NCBI GenBank assembly: GCA_958296245.1
Contig: OY282458.1
Span: 1,510,777 to 1,574,776 of the forward strand
Direction: 5' to 3'
Source of the DNA: an uncultured Dehalococcoidia bacterium
GTDB taxonomy: Bacteria; Chloroflexota; Dehalococcoidia; Lucifugimonadales; G958296245
Length of the DNA: 64,000 nt
Below are positions 10,005 to 19,609 of this stretch, piece after piece. The notes beneath the pieces were generated by a model. The model was given only the letters and a program-made list of their open reading frames with translations. It did no database searches and had not been told where the DNA came from. Every line of letters begins with the position of its first letter. Position 1 is the stretch's first letter. The translations under genes and the position numbers were made by a program.

Positions 10005-11222
10005 TCATGCGGCTTGCCGCAGCCTCAGCGCCTCATCGCGCCGCGCCTTGACCTTCTCCGCCAGCCATCCGACGCGTGCGAGTATATCCTCGAGTGTGCC
10101 AGACAGATCGAGCGCGACGATCTCCAGCCGCTTGCCGGCGTGCCTGATTTCGTGGACCACCGGCTCCGCCTCGCCCTGAGCGTATATAAGCATCCCGCCC
10201 GGCAGATCAAGCGCGGTAACATAGGCGAGCATCTGGCACAGGTCGGCCACGGGTACGGACCCGTCGGTGAGGTTCTTGTACTTGGCGTCGCCCACGAACA
10301 CGCAGTTCTCGCCGCGCCACCAGGTGAGGTCGGGCCGGAGACGCACCTTACCTTCCTCATCGAGGCTCGGAATTTCCCTTTCTAGGAACACGCGCTCGGA
10401 GACGCGCAGCGCCTCCCGCAGCGCCACCATTACGAACTCCTGGAAGACGAAGTTCATGTCCATCAGGAACCCGGACGCCCGCACTTCGCCCCGGCCCGCC
10501 TCGAACGCGCCGTGCCGCAGGACGAGCCGCGACAGCGCCACGACGTCTTGGTAGTGCTCGTTCAGCCGGTCGAAAGCGACCTCCGGGACGTTGCTCGGAG
10601 GGAACGGGACGAGCGAGACGCTTTCCAGCATCCCGGCAACCCGTCCCAGCCCCCGGCGCGCCGTCGGCGAGCGCAGCCGCATCCCGCCCAGCCGGTACAC
10701 AGCCGCCTTCACCAGACGGTTCGCCAATATGTCGTCCGTGAACTCGTCGTAGCGCACCTCGACGGGCAGGGGGGCGTCGAACCTGCGCCGTATCTGCTCG
10801 TCGAACCTGATGCGTCCGCGCACGGTGTGCAGTGCCTCCTCCTCCGTGCGGTAGCCGTGGAGCAGCCCGCGTGAAAAGGCCCGGCGGGCGTGGGAGGCTA
10901 ACGCGAGTGCGAGCACGTCGGGCAACTCGTCCTCTCTGCGGAAGGTGAAGTCCTCATCCCGCAATACGACCTTTCCAATTGCGTAGCAGGCGAGCGACAG
11001 CAGCTTCGGGATGCCTATCTTGGGCCGAATCAGTATGGATAGGCCGCCTATCTCGACCGCGCCGACGGTCGAGCCGGGCCTCATGTAGTACTCGCTGCTC
11101 CCACCGGCGGCCGGCGTAATGGAGAGCCTGAGTTTCGTCTCACCCAGCAGGTCGTCAAACTCAGTGGGCGAGAGCGTATGCGGCCCGCTCTGCTGGTACT
11201 CCTTCAGGTCGATCTGACGCAT
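10005..11222 (-). CDS. mcrC: McrC-family nuclease subunit of a McrBC-type restriction system
   Basis: The nuclease partner of McrB GTPases; McrBC systems cut DNA with modified cytosines. The 405-residue protein has an N-terminal beta-rich region. A PD-(D/E)XK site lies near residue 310: LRPDLTWW, then FVGDAKYKN. The ATG at 11222 overlaps the upstream mcrB stop (TGATG), so translation is coupled; an in-frame GTG at 11225 is less likely. It is the only complete mcrC here, although three mcrB genes precede it on this strand. It would have to serve all three. Confidence 0.92.
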   Translation of the reverse strand: MRQIDLKEYQQSGPHTLSPTEFDDLLGETKLRLSITPAAGGSSEYYMRPGSTVGAVEIGGLSILIRPKIGIPKLLSLACYAIGKVVLRDEDFTFRREDELPDVLALALASHARRAFSRGLLHGYRTEEEALHTVRGRIRFDEQIRRRFDAPLPVEVRYDEFTDDILANRLVKAAVYRLGGMRLRSPTARRGLGRVAGMLESVSLVPFPPSNVPEVAFDRLNEHYQDVVALSRLVLRHGAFEAGRGEVRASGFLMDMNFVFQEFVMVALREALRVSERVFLEREIPSLDEEGKVRLRPDLTWWRGENCVFVGDAKYKNLTDGSVPVADLCQMLAYVTALDLPGGMLIYAQGEAEPVVHEIRHAGKRLEIVALDLSGTLEDILARVGWLAEKVKARRDEALRLRQAA

Positions 11223-12802
11223 CACTGCGCGCCGCCGCCCTCGTTCTCGTCGGACTGCTGCGTCTCTGCGCCATCGCCTGCTCCGCGCAGCTTATCGAGG
11301 GCGAACTCGTCGAGACCCTCGCGTTCCGCGAATAGGCGTTCCTCAATATAGGGGAGCACGCTGTGCTTCCAGATGCGGTCTACCGCCTCATCGTCGAGGC
11401 CGGCCTTCATGAAGTAGCTCGGCCCGATGGCGGCGTGCCGGTCTTCCTTCAACTGCTTGTTCGCCTGCTCGACGACGCCAGCCACCCAATCCATATCGGG
11501 CGCCTTCTCTTTCAGCCAGCGGCGGAGCACGCCCTTGATCGGCTCATCGTCCGGGTGGAACTCCACGAAGTAGAACCGGCGCCGCAGCGCCAGGTCCACC
11601 AGCGCGATGGAGCGGTCCGCCGTGTTCATCGTCCCGATGACGTAGAGGTTGTTGGGTAGGAAGAATGGCTCGTCCGAGTACTGTAGGCGCATCTCGCGGT
11701 CGCGGTACTCCAGCAGGAAATACAGCTCTCCGAACACCTTGGCGAGGTTGCCCCGGTTGATCTCGTCTATGACAAGGAAGTGGTCCGCATCCGGCTCGCT
11801 CTGCGCGCGTTTGGCGGCCCTCAGCAGCGGCCCGTTCCGCAGCTCGAATCCGGGCCGGCCGTCTTTCAGGGTAGGGCGGTAGCCTTGCACGAAATCCTCG
11901 TAGGCGTATGACGGGTGGAGCTGGACCAGTGTGACCCGCTCCTTCGAGCCGGCGAGGCGCTCGGCGAGCTCCTGAGCAACGTAGGTCTTACCGGTGCCCG
12001 GCGGCCCTTGGAATATGACCTGACGTTTTTCGTATAGCAGCGATTGGATACCGCGTAGGAATTCGGCGGTGAGATGCAGTTCGGTGGCGAGGGTGAGGAG
12101 GTCAGAGGGAACCATATCGGAATCCGGCGGTGCCGGTGGGCCGTCTTCTTGCTGTCTGGGAAGATTCCAAAACTTGTCGTAATGGCTCAACCAAACCATC
12201 GACTGCGCGTCGAGGCGGTGTCGTAAGGTCAGCCCACGCTTCGACGCCTGTTCCATGAATCGGTCGAGGAAGCCAAGAGCGTGGTCGTACAGCGCCGCCT
12301 CGTCCGCGTTCTGCTCTGGGGAGTCGTATCCAGTACGCTCGTATGCCTTTTTGAATGCCCTAGTCTTGAACGGCGGGTACCGCTCGGCGTCCAATCCCAT
12401 CAGCAACACTGACACAACGTTTGTTCGGCTTCCCGGGGTCTGCAAAACATCCTGATGGAATAGCCTACAGAAGGCACGGATTCGCTCAGAGACAGAGGGG
12501 TAGTCCCGCGTCCAAATCGCCCGCAACGCTCGCAGCGCAGCGTTCGGGGACTCGTTGATCCAACTCTTGAATTTCGCTTGATCAATTTGGAAGATGAGTG
12601 GGAATTTGCTAGCAGAGATCCCTTTCTTTACCAAGTCTGCCCAGTTGGCATCTTCGGCAAGCACCGCTTTCCGCGCCGCCGCGAGCCTTCGACCTGTCTC
12701 AACCTTGGGGGCAATATCGCCTTTTACTTCTTCTTCTTCAAGGTGGCCAATCGTTTTGGCGTGTCTGACGAACTCGTCCCAAGGGTTAAAGTCAGGATCC
12801 AT
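11222..12802 (-). CDS. mcrB: McrB-family AAA+ GTPase, copy 1 (next to mcrC)
   Basis: The motor subunit of a McrBC-type system, 526 residues. Residues 1-240 or so are a sensor/recognition region unlike that of the other two copies. The AAA+ module follows: Walker A GPPGTGKT, Walker B FLVIDEINRGNLAK and the McrB signature GTMNTADRS with LRRRF. Its motor region (about 830 bases) is nearly identical to copies 2 and 3. A GAGGGAG box lies before the ATG and a promoter-like TTGTCG-18-TAGAAT at 12835-12864. The N-terminal half looks less GC-rich than neighbouring genes, which suggests a separate origin. It couples to mcrC by TGATG. Confidence 0.9.
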   Translation of the reverse strand: MDPDFNPWDEFVRHAKTIGHLEEEEVKGDIAPKVETGRRLAAARKAVLAEDANWADLVKKGISASKFPLIFQIDQAKFKSWINESPNAALRALRAIWTRDYPSVSERIRAFCRLFHQDVLQTPGSRTNVVSVLLMGLDAERYPPFKTRAFKKAYERTGYDSPEQNADEAALYDHALGFLDRFMEQASKRGLTLRHRLDAQSMVWLSHYDKFWNLPRQQEDGPPAPPDSDMVPSDLLTLATELHLTAEFLRGIQSLLYEKRQVIFQGPPGTGKTYVAQELAERLAGSKERVTLVQLHPSYAYEDFVQGYRPTLKDGRPGFELRNGPLLRAAKRAQSEPDADHFLVIDEINRGNLAKVFGELYFLLEYRDREMRLQYSDEPFFLPNNLYVIGTMNTADRSIALVDLALRRRFYFVEFHPDDEPIKGVLRRWLKEKAPDMDWVAGVVEQANKQLKEDRHAAIGPSYFMKAGLDDEAVDRIWKHSVLPYIEERLFAEREGLDEFALDKLRGAGDGAETQQSDENEGGGAQ

Positions 12803-12834
12803 TTGTTCTCCCTCGGATGCTGTTTGCTGGGAGC

Positions 12835-12864
12835 ATTCTAGCCCGCCCAGAGAGTGGTCGACAA
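12835..12864 (-). promoter_or_regulatory. Putative promoter of mcrB copy 1
   Basis: Read on the minus strand: TTGTCG (12859-12864), an 18-base spacer, TAGAAT (12835-12840). A GGGCTAGAATG-like box also precedes mcrB copy 3, so the element seems to have been duplicated with the gene. Copy 2 lacks it. Confidence 0.45.
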
Positions 12865-12879
12865 GCCGCAGCCTCGCAA

Positions 12880-13068
12880 CATGGACAGGCCGTCTATCTC
12901 GACCGCGCCGACGGTCGAGCCGGACCTCATGTAGTACTCGCTGCTCCCACCGGCGGCCGGCGTAATGGAGAGCCTGAGTTTCGCCTCACCCAGCAGGTCG
13001 TCGAACTCAGTGGGCGAGAGCGTATGCGGCCCGCTCTGCTGGTACTCCTTCAGGTCGATCTAACGCAT
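12880..13068 (-). pseudogene. Truncated mcrC 5' remnant (stub 1)
   Basis: About 63 codons matching the first 64 residues of mcrC nearly base for base, joined to the stop of mcrB copy 2 by the same TGATG overlap. The third codon is TAG where the intact gene has CAG, and similarity stops abruptly near 12880. Only a Met-Arg dipeptide could be made. It is the relic of an mcrBC unit whose mcrC body was lost when copy 1 became joined downstream. Confidence 0.85.
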
Positions 13069-14849
13069 CACGGCGCGCCGCCGCCCTGATTCTCCGCGCC
13101 GGACTGCGCCTCCGCGCCATCGCCTGCCTGGGGGTCGGGAGTGCCCGCCCCGCGCAGCTTATCGAGGGCGAACTCGTCGAGACCCTCGCGTTCTACGAAG
13201 AGGCGCTCCTCGACGTAGGGGAGCACGCTGTGCTTCCAGATGCGGTCTACCGCCTCATCGTCGAGGCCGGCCTTCATGAAGTAGCTCGGCCCGATGGCGG
13301 CGTGTCGGTCTCCCTTCAATTGCTTGTTCGCCTGCTCGACGACGCCGGCCACCCAATCCATGCCGGGCGCCTTGGCCTGTATCCAGCGACGGAGCACGCC
13401 CTTGATCGGCTTATCGTCCGGGTGGAACTCCACGAAGTAGAACCGGCGCCGCAGCGCCAGGTCCACCAGTGCGATGGAGCGGTCCGCCGTGTTCATCGTC
13501 CCGATTACGTAGAGGTTCTTGGGTAGGGAGAATGGCTCGTCCGAGTACTGGAGGCGCATCTCGCGGTCGCGGTACTCCAGCAGGAAATACAGCTCTCCGA
13601 ACACCTTGGCGAGGTTGCCCCGGTTGATCTCGTCTATGACAAGGAAGTGGTCCGCATCCGGCTCGTCCTGCGCGCGTTTGGCGGCCCGCAGCAGCGGCCC
13701 GTTCCGCAGCTCGAATCCGGGCTGGCCGTCTTTCAGGGTAGGGCGGTAGCCTTGCACGAAATCCTCGTAGGCGTATGAGGGGTGGAGCTGGACCAGTGTG
13801 ACCCACTCCTTCAAGCCGGCGAGGCACTCGGCGAGCTCCTGAGCAACGTAGGTCTTCCCCGTGCCCGGCGGCCCCTGGAAGATGACCTGACGTTTTTCGT
13901 ATAGCAGGGTCTTGATTTCGCGAAGGAACTTGGCGGGGAGGAATAACTCCTCAGCGAGCGCCTGCAGGTCAGGGTAGGGAACCTCCGGGCCGTCCGTTTC
14001 AGAAGAGGTGTCTTCTTCAGATAGTCCACCTAGCTTGGGATCCCACTGTGAGCGGATGTCATAGAAGTCAAAGTCGTGCTCGAGCTCGGCCTCGAGGCCT
14101 CGGCGAATCTGATAGATCTTGCGGTCAACATCCGGCGTCGGCTGAGTGACGAAGCGTGCGAACGCCTCTGCGCCGGCTATGAGTTCCTTGTGCCGGAAAG
14201 TTACGATACTATCGAAGTAGTCGGGAAAGACAAAGTGGAGCAGAGCCTCGCGTTGCTCGAAATCTATCATACTCGCGTTGAGCCGCTCGAGATACTCGTT
14301 GCCTTGCGTTGCAAAAGCTTTGAACGCCCACGGGTCCTCGAGCAAACGTTGGCGCTCGCCCGAATCCAACCCCTTCCACTGCTCTACGAACTTTACGAGG
14401 AACCCAACGTGAACTGGAAGTGCCCATTTGAGTTTCGCAGAGGCAGCCTTAGAGGCAGCTATACCAGGCGTTAGACCGTCTACAAGATCGGCAGGAATTT
14501 CTATTTGCCGCTCCGACCAACCCAGCACCCGCTTGAGCCGATTATATTTCGTATCACCCCGCATGTCTGTACGATGCATAATGAGGAAGTGGAAGTAGAG
14601 CGCCTCCCCCATCAGTTGGCAGACCTCCGGGGGGCTGCCTGCTAGCTGCCTTTGAAACATCTCGTGGTAACCGCGCCATTCCTCAACCGGCTTACCTAAC
14701 CACTCCCGAAGCTCCCCAAGCCAGTGGCTGGACCAGATAGCCTTGCCGGGCGTGAAGAGCGAGTCGTCGGCCCGCAGCGCGCAATCAACCCACTTCTGCG
14801 CCGCCGCGTACACCTTCTCTGCTCCGTCGTGTGTCTTCCTGCTGCCCAT
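13068..14849 (-). CDS. mcrB: McrB-family AAA+ GTPase, copy 2 (middle of array)
   Basis: 593 residues. The N-terminal region (1-310) contains the McrB-type segment REALLHFVFPDYFDSIVTF and is related to copy 3 but unrelated to copy 1. The AAA+ module carries GPPGTGKT, FLVIDEINRGN and GTMNTADRS. A TTG in frame at 14870 exists, but AAAGGAG before the ATG at 14849, shared with copy 3, fixes the start. The promoter-like box seen before copies 1 and 3 is missing: similarity to copy 3's upstream begins only at ACACTCTTG. Expression may therefore depend on readthrough from copy 3. Its stop couples to a dead mcrC stub. Confidence 0.9.
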   Translation of the reverse strand: MGSRKTHDGAEKVYAAAQKWVDCALRADDSLFTPGKAIWSSHWLGELREWLGKPVEEWRGYHEMFQRQLAGSPPEVCQLMGEALYFHFLIMHRTDMRGDTKYNRLKRVLGWSERQIEIPADLVDGLTPGIAASKAASAKLKWALPVHVGFLVKFVEQWKGLDSGERQRLLEDPWAFKAFATQGNEYLERLNASMIDFEQREALLHFVFPDYFDSIVTFRHKELIAGAEAFARFVTQPTPDVDRKIYQIRRGLEAELEHDFDFYDIRSQWDPKLGGLSEEDTSSETDGPEVPYPDLQALAEELFLPAKFLREIKTLLYEKRQVIFQGPPGTGKTYVAQELAECLAGLKEWVTLVQLHPSYAYEDFVQGYRPTLKDGQPGFELRNGPLLRAAKRAQDEPDADHFLVIDEINRGNLAKVFGELYFLLEYRDREMRLQYSDEPFSLPKNLYVIGTMNTADRSIALVDLALRRRFYFVEFHPDDKPIKGVLRRWIQAKAPGMDWVAGVVEQANKQLKGDRHAAIGPSYFMKAGLDDEAVDRIWKHSVLPYVEERLFVEREGLDEFALDKLRGAGTPDPQAGDGAEAQSGAENQGGGAP

Positions 14850-14879
14850 ACTCGCGTTCTCCTTTCCCAAGAGTGTCAG

Positions 14880-15020
14880 GTAGTATTCCCTGCTCTCACC
14901 GGCGGCCGGCGTAATGGAGAGCCTGAGATCTTTCGCCTCACACAGCAGGTCGTCGTGCTCAGTGGGTGAGAGCGTATACGGCTCGCTCTGCTGGTACTCC
15001 TTCAGGTCGATCTAACGCAT
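14880..15020 (-). pseudogene. Truncated mcrC 5' remnant (stub 2)
   Basis: About 45 codons of the mcrC N-terminus after mcrB copy 3, again entered by TGATG, with the same CAG-to-TAG change at codon 3 as stub 1. It is more diverged (extra codon, several substitutions) and shorter than stub 1. The shared nonsense change implies the stubs descend from one already-inactive mcrC or were homogenised by gene conversion. Confidence 0.82.
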
Positions 15021-16771
15021 CACTGCGCGCCGCCGCCCTGATTCTCCGCGTCGGACTGCGTCTCCGCGCCATCGTCTGCCTGGGGGTCGGGAGTGCCCGC
15101 CCCGCGCAGCTTATCAAGGGCGAACTCGTCGAGACCCTCGCGTTCCGCGAATAGGCGTTCCTCAATATAGGGGAGCACGCTGTGCTTCCAGATGCGCTCT
15201 ACCGCCTCATCGTCGAGGGGGTCCTTCATGAAGTAGCTCGGCCCGATGGCGGCGTGCCGGTCTTCCTTCAACTGCTGCTTCTCGTTCGCCCGCTCTACGG
15301 CGTCAGCCACCCAATCCATGCCGGGCGCCTTGGCCTGTATCCAGCGGCGGAGCACGCCCTTGATCGGCTCATCGTCCGGGTGGAACTCCACGAAGTAGAA
15401 CCGGCGCCGCAGCGCCAGGTCCACCAGCGCGATGGAGCGGTCCGCCGTGTTCATCGTCCCGATTACGTAGAGGTTCTTAGGTAGGGAGAATGGCTCTTCC
15501 GAGTACTGGAGGCGCATCTCGCGGTCGCGGTACTCCAGCAGGAAATACAGCTCCCCGAACACCTTGGCGAGGTTGCCCCGGTTGATCTCGTCTATGACAA
15601 GGAAGTGGTGCGCACCCGGCTCTCCCTGCGCGCGTTTGGCGGCCCTCAGCAGCGGCCCGTTCCGCAGCTCGAATCCGGGCTGGCCGTCTTTCAGGGCAGG
15701 GCGGTAGCCTTGCACGAAATCCTCGTAGGCGTATGACGGGTGGAGCTGGACCAGTGTGACCCGCTCCTTCGAGCCGGCGAGGCGCGCGGCGAGCTCCTGC
15801 GCAACGTAGGTCTTCCCCGTGCCCGGCGGCCCCTGGAAGATGACCTGACGTTTGTCGTATAGCAGGGTCTTGATTTCTCCAAGGAACTCAATGGAGAGGA
15901 ATAACTCCTCAGCGAGCGCCTGCAGGTCAGGGTAGGGAACCTCCGGGCCGTCCGTTTCAGAAGAGGCGTCTTCTTCAGCACTTGGCTTGGGGTACCACTG
16001 TGCGCGGATGTCTTCGTCAGCATAGAAGTCAAAGTCGGGCCCGAGCTCAGCCTCGAGGCCTCGGCGAATCTGAAGGATACTGCGGTCAACATCCTCCTCC
16101 GTCTGCTCAGTGACGAAGTGTGCGAACGCCTTTGCGTCGGCTATGAGTTCCTTGTACCAGACAGATACGATACCCTCGAATTTGTCGGGAAAGACAAGGT
16201 GGACCAGAGCCTCGCGTTGCTCGATATACTTGTTGCCTTGAGTTGCAAAATCTTTAAATGCCCACGGGTTCTCGAGCAAACGTTGGCGCTCGCCCGAATC
16301 CAATCCCTTCCACTGCTCTACGAACTTTACGAGGAACCCAACCTGAACTGGAAGTGCAAGCTTGAGTCTCGCATCGGCAGCTATACCAGGCGCTAGACCG
16401 TCTATGAGATCGGCAGGAATTTCTATTTGCTGCTCCGACCAACCCAGCACCTGCTTGAGCTGATCAACTTTCGTGCTACCCCACACGATTGTAGGATGCA
16501 CAATGAGGAAGTGGAAGTAGAGCACCTCCCCCATTAGCTGGTAGACCTCCGGGGGGCTGCCTGCTAGCTGCCTTTGAAACTTCTCGAAGAAAAACCCCTC
16601 TCCCTCATCCGGCTTATTTAACCGCTCCTGTAGCTCCCCAAGCCAGTGGCTGGACCAGATAGCCTCGCCGGGCGTGAAGAGCGAGTCGTCGGCCCGCAGC
16701 GCGCAATCAACCCACTTCTGCGCCGCCGCGTACACCTTCTCTGCTCCGTCGTGTGTCTTCCTGCTGCCCAT
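15020..16771 (-). CDS. mcrB: McrB-family AAA+ GTPase, copy 3 (first gene of array)
   Basis: 583 residues, the promoter-proximal gene of the array. The N-terminal region (1-300) is related to copy 2 but differs by several insertions/deletions and many substitutions. The AAA+ module (GPPGTGKT, FLVIDEINRGN, GTMNTADRS, LRRRF) is almost the same as in copies 1 and 2. AAAGGAG precedes the ATG. The pattern of conserved motor and diverging sensor is expected if the copies recognise different targets or ligands. It diverges from the PaREP1-like genes. Confidence 0.9.
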   Translation of the reverse strand: MGSRKTHDGAEKVYAAAQKWVDCALRADDSLFTPGEAIWSSHWLGELQERLNKPDEGEGFFFEKFQRQLAGSPPEVYQLMGEVLYFHFLIVHPTIVWGSTKVDQLKQVLGWSEQQIEIPADLIDGLAPGIAADARLKLALPVQVGFLVKFVEQWKGLDSGERQRLLENPWAFKDFATQGNKYIEQREALVHLVFPDKFEGIVSVWYKELIADAKAFAHFVTEQTEEDVDRSILQIRRGLEAELGPDFDFYADEDIRAQWYPKPSAEEDASSETDGPEVPYPDLQALAEELFLSIEFLGEIKTLLYDKRQVIFQGPPGTGKTYVAQELAARLAGSKERVTLVQLHPSYAYEDFVQGYRPALKDGQPGFELRNGPLLRAAKRAQGEPGAHHFLVIDEINRGNLAKVFGELYFLLEYRDREMRLQYSEEPFSLPKNLYVIGTMNTADRSIALVDLALRRRFYFVEFHPDDEPIKGVLRRWIQAKAPGMDWVADAVERANEKQQLKEDRHAAIGPSYFMKDPLDDEAVERIWKHSVLPYIEERLFAEREGLDEFALDKLRGAGTPDPQADDGAETQSDAENQGGGAQ

Positions 16772-16935: not shown

Positions 16936-17319
16936 ATGACTTCCCGGGAGCGTGTCAGGGAGCCGGCGCGTCCCATGGACCATGTCCGGGCCGCGCTGGA
17001 CTTTCTGGAGGCGTCGGACCGCGAGTTCGACGAAGGAGACCGTCTTCAGGCGTCCGAGAAGCTATGGGGTGCGGCGTCTCACGCGGTGATGGCGGTCGCG
17101 GAGCGGCGCGATTGGCCCCACGGCAGTCACCGCGCGATGAAGAACGCCGTCGAGCGGCTCTCCGATGAGCACGATGACCCTCTCATCAAATACGGGTTCA
17201 GCGTTGCGGAGAAGTTCCACCGCAACTTCTACCATGACAACATGGAGGACTTCGAGCTGGACACCGACCGCCCCAAGGTGCGGGACTTCGTTGAAAGGGT
17301 GACCGCGCTGCTGCGCTGA
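16936..17319 (+). CDS. PaREP1/HEPN-like protein, copy A
   Basis: A 127-residue all-helical protein. ASEKLWGAASHAV and AEKFHRNFYHDNM match the core of the PaREP1 family (typical ASEKLWKAAEE... LHxNFYE), which belongs to the HEPN clan. HEPN proteins are often RNases or partners in toxin-antitoxin and defence systems, but PaREP1 proteins have no fixed biochemical role. It is divergent from the mcrB array and followed by a near-identical copy 545 bases downstream. No partner nucleotidyltransferase is adjacent. Confidence 0.72.
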   Translation: MTSRERVREPARPMDHVRAALDFLEASDREFDEGDRLQASEKLWGAASHAVMAVAERRDWPHGSHRAMKNAVERLSDEHDDPLIKYGFSVAEKFHRNFYHDNMEDFELDTDRPKVRDFVERVTALLR

Positions 17320-17480
17320 GCAACTGTTCAGACTTCGTGGCATCTCACACCGGAACACCCGGCTAACCGACAAACCATCCTGAAAATCCAAATCTGACAA
17401 GCCGCTGCCACGCGCTTTGCGCCAGCTAACGCCCGAACGTGCGATGCTCATACGGCAAGACCACACTGCGGGGTGATTCG

Positions 17481-17864
17481 ATGACTTCCCGGGAGCGTGT
17501 CAGGGAGCCGGCGCGGCCCATGGACCATGTCCGGGCCGCGCTGGACTTTCTGGAGGCGTCGGATCGCGAGTTCGACGAAGGAGACCGTCTTCAGGCGTCC
17601 GAGAAACTATGGGGTGCGGCGTCTCACGCGGTGATGGCGGTCGCGGAGCGGCGCGATTGGCCCCACGGCAGTCACCGCGCGATGAAGAACGCCGTCGAGC
17701 GGCTCTCCGATGAGCACGATGACCCTCTCATCAAATACGGGTTCGGATTCGCGGAGAAGTTCCACCGCAACTTCTACCATGCCAACATGGAGGACTTCGA
17801 GTTGGACACCGATCGCCCCAAGGTGCGGGACTTCGTTGAAAGGGTGACCGCGCTGCTGCGCTGA
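17481..17864 (+). CDS. PaREP1/HEPN-like protein, copy B
   Basis: 127 residues, differing from copy A at three positions only (Ser-to-Gly and Val-to-Phe just before AEKFHRNFYH, Asp-to-Ala just after it), all near the putative HEPN R-x3-H motif. The frame is open to 17439, but the ATG at 17481 corresponds exactly to copy A's start. Function is as uncertain as for copy A. The duplication suggests dosage or hetero-oligomer use. Confidence 0.7.
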   Translation: MTSRERVREPARPMDHVRAALDFLEASDREFDEGDRLQASEKLWGAASHAVMAVAERRDWPHGSHRAMKNAVERLSDEHDDPLIKYGFGFAEKFHRNFYHANMEDFELDTDRPKVRDFVERVTALLR

Positions 17865-18154: not shown

Positions 18155-19255
18155 TCAGGCGCCGACGCGCACCTGGATGACGCCCAGCCTGTGCAACTGT
18201 CCGAGGACTTGCAGACCCATCTCGTGGACCTGCGCGCGCCGAAACCGTAGACCGTCCCACTGGATGTCTGAGTCGAAGCCGGCCTCGTTCAGTGGGATGA
18301 CCCGGTCGTCGCAGAGCGCGGCTGCTGCCCCGAGCTGGGCCAGCACCTTCGGGATCATGCGGCGGAGCCCCAGACCGGCCCAGGGTCCGCTCCGGGGCTC
18401 CGCGAAGATGATCACTGACGCGGCGCACCCGCGCATGGCCTCGATGGTATCCGGCGATACCAGGAAGCCGTCGTCGGGGTCGGCTTCGGTCTGGACGCTC
18501 GAGATCCCAAACGAGTCCAGCATCCCTTTGACCGCCTGGGCCACGTCCTCGGCCCCCGCGTGCCCGATGAAGACAGTCCCTCGCTCCACTGGCTCGCCGG
18601 GCGGCCTCTTGTCCACTGGTCCTGGGCCGTCCTCTCTCTCAGACGCCTGGGATGAGAGCGAAGGGCCGTCCGAGGCCTCCCGGCGGCCGGTGGACGGGCC
18701 AGCCTCAGGGGCAGACAGGCTGACGTAGAGCGAGCCGCCCACGTCGGTGATTATCCCTGTCAGCAGGCCGTTCTCCTTGATGATCCGTAGGCACTCGGCG
18801 GTAAGCTCCGGGTGAATACCGAGTTCCCGGCGCAGGACATTTTCAGCGTACGCGTCCCCGGGCACCTTCTTGCCTGCAAGCATTTCGTAGAAGTGCCTGA
18901 AGGGATCCGGCTTCAGGGACACTTCGATCATGGTCCTCCGCCGCTCGTTCGAGTCTTGAGGACCTACGAGCGACTCCCCCAGGTCGGTAAGAGAGATGCT
19001 TCCCTCGCTCGTGCCTCCCTGGGTCAGGCCGTACTTGGTCGAGGAGCTCAGCTTCATGGTGAAAGCGCTGCTGGAAGGGGTCGTGCCCAGCTCGCGGGCG
19101 AGCAGTACGCGGTCGAACGGCAGACCCGCATTGGCCTCGTAGACCGCGGTCGGCACTGACAAGGCCTCCTCCAGGGTATGGATGGGGTACGTCCTAGTCA
19201 GTCTCGTTCGCTTCCTACCTCCGCCGTTAGTCGACTCGGGGCTGCCGGCTGCCAT
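18155..19255 (-). CDS. Winged-helix + TIR-like (predicted nucleotide-binding) protein
   Basis: 366 residues. Residues 20-185 form two helical, winged-helix-like blocks (FDRVLLARELG... then FRHFYEMLAGKK... ENVLRRELGI). A low-complexity linker follows. Residues 220-366 resemble the predicted nucleotide-binding TIR-like family (PF10137): VFIGHAGAEDVAQAVKGML, SPDTIEAMRGCAASVIIF (Glu in the expected catalytic place), then LAQLGAAAALCDDRVIPL and MGLQVLGQL. Such proteins act as NAD-consuming or signal-binding effectors in antiviral systems. GAGGTGG lies before the ATG at 19255; the frame stays open to 19438 but that part would be upstream of the promoter. Confidence 0.72.
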   Translation of the reverse strand: MAAGSPESTNGGGRKRTRLTRTYPIHTLEEALSVPTAVYEANAGLPFDRVLLARELGTTPSSSAFTMKLSSSTKYGLTQGGTSEGSISLTDLGESLVGPQDSNERRRTMIEVSLKPDPFRHFYEMLAGKKVPGDAYAENVLRRELGIHPELTAECLRIIKENGLLTGIITDVGGSLYVSLSAPEAGPSTGRREASDGPSLSSQASEREDGPGPVDKRPPGEPVERGTVFIGHAGAEDVAQAVKGMLDSFGISSVQTEADPDDGFLVSPDTIEAMRGCAASVIIFAEPRSGPWAGLGLRRMIPKVLAQLGAAAALCDDRVIPLNEAGFDSDIQWDGLRFRRAQVHEMGLQVLGQLHRLGVIQVRVGA

Positions 19256-19301
19256 TGAAATATAGCCACCTCGTTGAAAAAAAGTCCTGAATGCAACCAA
19301 G

Positions 19302-19330
19302 AATATAGGCGGATACGGGCCTGGTGTCAA
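19302..19330 (-). promoter_or_regulatory. Near-consensus sigma-70 promoter of the TIR-like gene
   Basis: On the minus strand: TTGACA (19325-19330), a spacer of exactly 17 bases (19308-19324), TATATT (19302-19307). The start point would be near 19295, giving a leader of about 40 bases that contains the Shine-Dalgarno box. This is the best promoter match in the window and supports the ATG at 19255. No other feature is seen in 19331-19609. Confidence 0.75.
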
Positions 19331-19609
19331 GCGTGCTTTTTCACTGATATTCAAGGCGTAACAATGGTGGTCAAGTATAATCTGAGACCTATATGAAAAG
19401 GATTGAAATATACTCAGCTTTGGGCGCCGTCGTTTCAACGCGGCTCGGTTCTTCGCTCAACCACCTCATGCCGCCCTCTGAGGAAACCCCACCACGGGCG
19501 GGCATCGTAGAGTAATCACGGGCAGGCACTTCGTCTATCCGGCGCAAGGCAACGCTTGGTGTAGAATTAGGGACAAGTACAGGGGGACACACTAGGAAGG
19601 GGTCTGGTT

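Follow-up and report, generated by a model that had tools for sequence, protein, structure and literature searches.

How three McrB motor proteins might be served by one McrC nuclease is the question raised by a locus in a 64,000-nucleotide stretch (the window) of contig OY282458.1 from an uncultured Dehalococcoidia bacterium, in which three consecutive mcrB genes run into a single mcrC. The host genome is a single contig of 2.685 Mb from a sponge-type Chloroflexota, and the closest motors are found in uncultured Dehalococcoidia and other Chloroflexota. As in the McrBC Type IV restriction systems of Escherichia coli K-12 and Thermococcus gammatolerans, the window McrBs have an NxxD AAA+ GTPase-type motor with a fused N-terminal head, the partner McrC carries a PD-(D/E)xK nuclease, and an mcrB lies directly before mcrC. 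Unlike in those systems, there are three mcrB genes per mcrC, and the heads belong to no Pfam family. We found no description of several mcrB genes with one mcrC in the open-access literature. The locus is probably a tandemly duplicated, multi-sensor McrBC system in which each McrB would be activated by the same McrC.

An earlier note, made from the letters and ORFs (open reading frames) of this DNA, had described three consecutive minus-strand mcrB genes with near-identical motors and one intact mcrC at the end, and this description held. We confirmed the positions of three intact ORFs, each encoding an McrB-type AAA+ domain, and of a single PF10117 mcrC, all transcribed on the minus strand in the order mcrB-A (15020..16771, 583 aa), mcrB-B (13068..14849, 593 aa), mcrB-C (11222..12802, 526 aa) and mcrC (10005..11222, 405 aa). 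The better start of mcrB-B is ATG 14849 (the listed ORF begins at TTG 14870), and that of mcrC is ATG 11222, which overlaps the mcrB-C stop codon as TGATG. The AAA+ motors lie at 15020..15880 (A), 13068..13922 (B) and 11222..12055 (C), and are 93-95% identical in nucleotides. Over the 277-284 codons compared, motors A and B share 94.6% of nucleotides and 90.8% of amino acids, A and C 93.0% and 89.5%, and B and C 93.1% and 91.3%. GPPGTGKT, DEINR, NTAD (NxxD) and LALRRRF are present in all three copies, which do not differ in their Walker, NxxD and arginine-finger motifs, and the motor matches E. coli McrB (6hz4) at 4e-47. Maximum-likelihood ratios of nonsynonymous to synonymous substitution (omega) were 0.27 (A/B), 0.24 (A/C) and 0.18 (B/C), with neutrality rejected each time (p <= 9e-5), which indicates that the motors are under purifying selection. 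The motors differ by 5-7% and the A and B heads by 10%, which argues that the array is not a single gene assembled several times.

The one mcrC matches PF10117 at 1.7e-49 and comprises a DUF2357-type finger and a PD-(D/E)xK nuclease; in alignment with solved McrC (6ut5/6hz4) the nuclease motif RPDL...GDAKY is kept, and R219 aligns with R263, the GTPase-stimulating residue of Thermococcus McrC (TgMcrC). The earlier note had asked whether dedicated mcrC genes lie elsewhere. A PF10117 search of the whole genome returned one mcrC, and neither this nor a protein search found another intact copy, the latter adding two scraps only. Searches of the genome for McrB likewise found no further full motor of this type, adding one trivial 35-residue match.

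The copies part ways in their heads. Those of A (15917..16771) and B (13999..14849) are homologous (89.6% identical in nucleotides, 78.4% in amino acids), and the indels that the earlier note saw between them are whole codons throughout. The head of C (12083..12802), the copy adjoining mcrC, is unrelated to both, as that note had also proposed: identity is 27-29% of amino acids in a forced alignment, and a profile comparison showed no relationship of head A to head C. The comparison of the two halves that the note had suggested separated them, omega for the single A/B pair of heads being 2.01 (p 0.018 versus 1), or 2.18 (p 0.009) once the first 35 residues were removed. Where the A and B heads differ, only 5 of 62 positions are family-conserved columns, versus 66 of 190 identical positions (p 2e-5), a pattern indicative of a kept core and a changing surface, not of decay. 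These data support the view that the heads stay in frame and evolve as functional variable domains.

Neither head family (30 and 49 members checked) had a credible Pfam match, and the heads are therefore not DUF3578/ADAM or another head having a Pfam model (EVE, YTH, B3). AlphaFold2 models of head C and head A (predicted local distance difference test scores of 91.4 and 90.6, respectively) are both compact, all-helical domains. The best structural matches of head C are Ogg2-type helix-hairpin-helix (HhH) DNA glycosylases, led by MjOgg (3knt; Z 8.3, root-mean-square deviation 4.0, 165 residues aligned), although a Z of ~8 can reflect a common helical arrangement. Other archaeal and Thermotoga 8-oxoguanine glycosylases follow at Z 8.1 (TmOgg), 7.9 and 6.6, and the top structural rows are mostly HhH glycosylases or Qng1. 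Foldseek E-values were poor (>0.5), and head C had no sequence similarity to Ogg2 (hhalign probability 0.4% with an Ogg2 protein); head C is therefore predicted to resemble the HhH DNA glycosylases in fold and not to be a member of them. Sequence kinship to Ogg2 was rejected for head A as well, none being found, and against solved structures head A gave weak rows only (best Z 3.4) and no convincing match. When the hairpin of head C was matched by eye only, N, R or T stood at the position of the catalytic Lys and mostly V, I or T at that of the catalytic Asp, which suggests a non-catalytic reader. E. coli McrB reads DNA by base flipping (PMC12707154), and by analogy a base-flipping fold would fit as an McrB head.

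A feature missed in the earlier note bears on how the array arose. In the gaps behind mcrB-A and mcrB-B, adjoining their 3' ends, lie minus-strand 5' remnants of mcrC: 145 bp at 14876..15020 corresponding to McrC residues 1-49, and 188 bp at 12881..13068 corresponding to residues 1-65. Each holds one TAG, at codon 3, and this CAG-to-TAG nonsense change is common to both; A and B therefore remained on a common line of descent after the first truncation. The remnant behind A breaks off where it joins the copied mcrB leader. The A/B repeat sets in shortly before the mcrB start, takes in head and motor and extends 145 bp into mcrC, while the B/C repeat runs from the motor into mcrC and includes 188 bp of it. 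Apparently, a segment made up of mcrB and the 5' end of mcrC was tandemly duplicated, leaving one complete mcrC. A duplication that starts before mcrB and ends within mcrC yields mcrB, an mcrC fragment, mcrB and a complete mcrC, and the single mcrC, being due to the breakpoint, need not have been a target of selection in itself.

An independent array in an uncultured Caldilineaceae (OY282381.1; L007) has this same order of mcrB, mcrC 5' fragment, mcrB and complete mcrC. Over 398 bp its fragment matches the intact mcrC at 97.7% identity; it continues into sequence also present upstream of the first mcrB, forming a chimeric ORF. L007 resembles the window array in that its mcrB genes, here two, have diverged in a segment of the head and are separated by a 5' piece of mcrC, with one intact mcrC; unlike in the window array, both of its copies are of head type C, its duplication is far younger, and its fragment of ~400 bp lies in a chimeric ORF. 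The L007 motors are nearly identical (synonymous divergence, dS, 0.014-0.016), and one head segment reaches a dS of 0.42; recombination there seems to exchange parts of the head and leave the motor as it is.

In the reading that we favor, a Type IV (McrBC) locus would have expanded by tandem duplication of a segment that begins shortly before mcrB and reaches 150-190 bp into mcrC, a geometry that would add mcrB genes and leave a single complete mcrC, the one farthest downstream. Afterwards, the copies would have been given target-reading heads or have diverged in them, A and B bearing diversified forms of one head type, and C a head unrelated to these whose fold is DNA-glycosylase-like. Each McrB would assemble into hexamers, either by itself or together with the others, and a common McrC would activate them, so that one nuclease would answer several DNA modifications or motifs. 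Structures of Thermococcus McrBC show which residues keep the McrB ring assembled and answer to McrC (PMC7680126); the Walker, NxxD and arginine-finger motifs among them do not vary across A, B and C. The GTPase and McrC-contact signature residues are kept in all three window McrBs, which therefore most likely work with a shared McrC. Each McrB hexamer accommodates a single McrC (PMC7680126), and surplus McrB genes are therefore not awkward. The earlier note's proposal of several sensors with one effector thus stands as far as the different heads, the one McrC and the kept signature residues go; that McrC serves all three copies, that hexamers are mixed and that targets differ is what we infer from them.

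Sharing of McrC would also be the simplest reading, with a precedent in E. coli, where two McrB polypeptides, McrB-L and McrB-S, share one McrC (PMC12707154). In both cases several McrB forms with the same motor accompany one McrC, but McrB-S is made by internal translation and is head-less, whereas the extra McrBs of the window are separate genes with full, different heads. A census of CoCoNuTs describes islands with multiple McrBC systems, whose components "may function cooperatively" (PMC11090510). The window array resembles these islands in holding several McrBC components together and differs from them in multiplying mcrB only. CoCoNuTs have an NxD motif and long coiled coils, whereas the window McrBs have NxxD (NTAD) and compact helical heads and so do not qualify as CoCoNuTs.

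Several observations weigh against a working multi-sensor array. No promoter of its own was seen in the sequence before mcrB-B. A promoter-like site precedes mcrB-C (12835..12864, minus strand; TTGTCG-18-TAGAAT, a consensus match only), and two sites of this kind were found in the region versus 1.4 expected. The A and B heads evolve faster than neutral, with an omega >1 that comes from one gene pair (p 0.009-0.018). Per-branch motor omega was 0.87 for A, 0.21 for B and 0.31 for C, so that constraint is clear for B and C and not for A (5 synonymous and 14 nonsynonymous changes), and mcrB-A could be relaxing. Finally, the search for arrays in relatives that the earlier note had called for yielded L007 and no array in the genomes sampled from the class and phylum: besides this genome, 22 of 294 genomes in the class and 36 of 400 in the phylum (one genome being in both samples) carry the motor, and none of them has two motors close together. 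In 15 of those motor-bearing genomes, motors and mcrC pair 1:1, bar one extra mcrC fragment. By these counts the array is unusual within its own family and not a widely fixed design.

Such rarity would also be expected of a duplication in transit, in which only mcrB-C and mcrC work and mcrB-A and mcrB-B are redundant and heading for loss. This alternative would account for the translational coupling of mcrB-C alone to mcrC, for the reduction of the first two mcrC copies to scraps and for the weak constraint on the A motor. However, all three ORFs are intact after ~10% synonymous divergence, indels between A and B are whole-codon only, changes between their heads avoid conserved columns, and the B motor is clearly constrained on its branch (12 synonymous, 8 nonsynonymous, p 0.0005). 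We consider loss in progress unlikely, if a serious contender.

We compared 80 relatives from named genomes, gathered with patterns partly taken from head C, so that architecture frequencies are biased. Before the same motor stood head A alone, head C alone, A and C fused, C-C and others; the A-then-C fusion is one McrB protein of ~785 residues, and head A is the sole recognized head in many relatives. There is nearly always one mcrB per mcrC. On a tree of 84 motors, architecture requires 37 changes (minimum 5; mean after shuffling, 45), and the window's own three motors fell into one group (99*) with two head types, indicating that head types are shuffled as modules among relatives of this motor. 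On plasmids, 69 records carry the motor, and three inspected records that have it in two places each show a single mcrB-mcrC pair at the locus viewed. Separately, a lone head-A ORF of 284 residues without a motor (L038, 6030-6881, plus strand) lies upstream of a head-A McrB and mcrC. In addition, one SAR202 genome bin (bin90) holds two McrBC loci with very similar motors on different contigs (L011 and L031), one with heads A and C and the other with head C.

A bolder form of the multi-sensor reading would have one McrC serve three McrBs in mixed-hexamer rings that read different modifications, one through a catalytically dead glycosylase-fold reader, with sensors shuffled as cassettes and diversifying under selection; taken as a whole, this conjunction strikes us as rather doubtful.

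Less probable still, the extra McrBs may be regulators that compete with McrB-C for McrC and so damp its complex. McrBs of E. coli works in this way: a second McrB polypeptide lacking a head, it shares McrC and suppresses restriction by withdrawing it (PMC12707154). The preserved motors and McrC-contact motifs would suit this role, but A and B retain full, fast-evolving heads, which would be superfluous for a mere competitor, and their head type is the only recognized one in many relatives.

The earlier note had attributed the compatibility of the motors to gene conversion, and this was not supported. Nei-Gojobori dS between A and B is 0.097 in the motor and 0.078 in the head, and it is the nonsynonymous divergence that differs; both parts are therefore of one age and differ in constraint, leaving motor-wide conversion unsupported. 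A first-pass runs test on motor differences gave 40 runs of 96 (p < 1e-4), and conversion of whole motors was rejected when this clustering disappeared once adjacent changes were collapsed (p 0.81). Purifying selection explains the motor similarity in the window array. The remnant behind B is 97% identical to the start of mcrC (6 of 188 bases differ), closer than motor synonymous divergence predicts (p 0.002) despite the stop it shares with the A remnant, perhaps owing to a short conversion tract. Homogenization of the motors with heads left to diverge, which this tract and the near-identical L007 motors beside a strongly diverged head segment might recall, is thus highly improbable, L007 itself being better explained by import of a head segment into recently duplicated genes.

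The array suggests how a restriction system could reach more targets with no increase in nuclease genes. It also provides naturally matched motors that differ in their heads, with which to ask which part of McrB chooses the target, and adds two head families that no Pfam model covers, one of them glycosylase-like in fold, before a common motor that spans several phyla.

Directly upstream of mcrB-A, in divergent orientation, lie tandem PaREP1-family genes (window 16936-17319 and 17439-17864, plus strand) that are ~94-97% identical, the first with a PF05942 match. Beyond them, at 18155-19438 on the minus strand, a 427-residue protein has a weak C-terminal match to CAP12/Pycsar TIR (PF10137, E 0.0075, below cut-off), and is a possible second defense gene beside the array.
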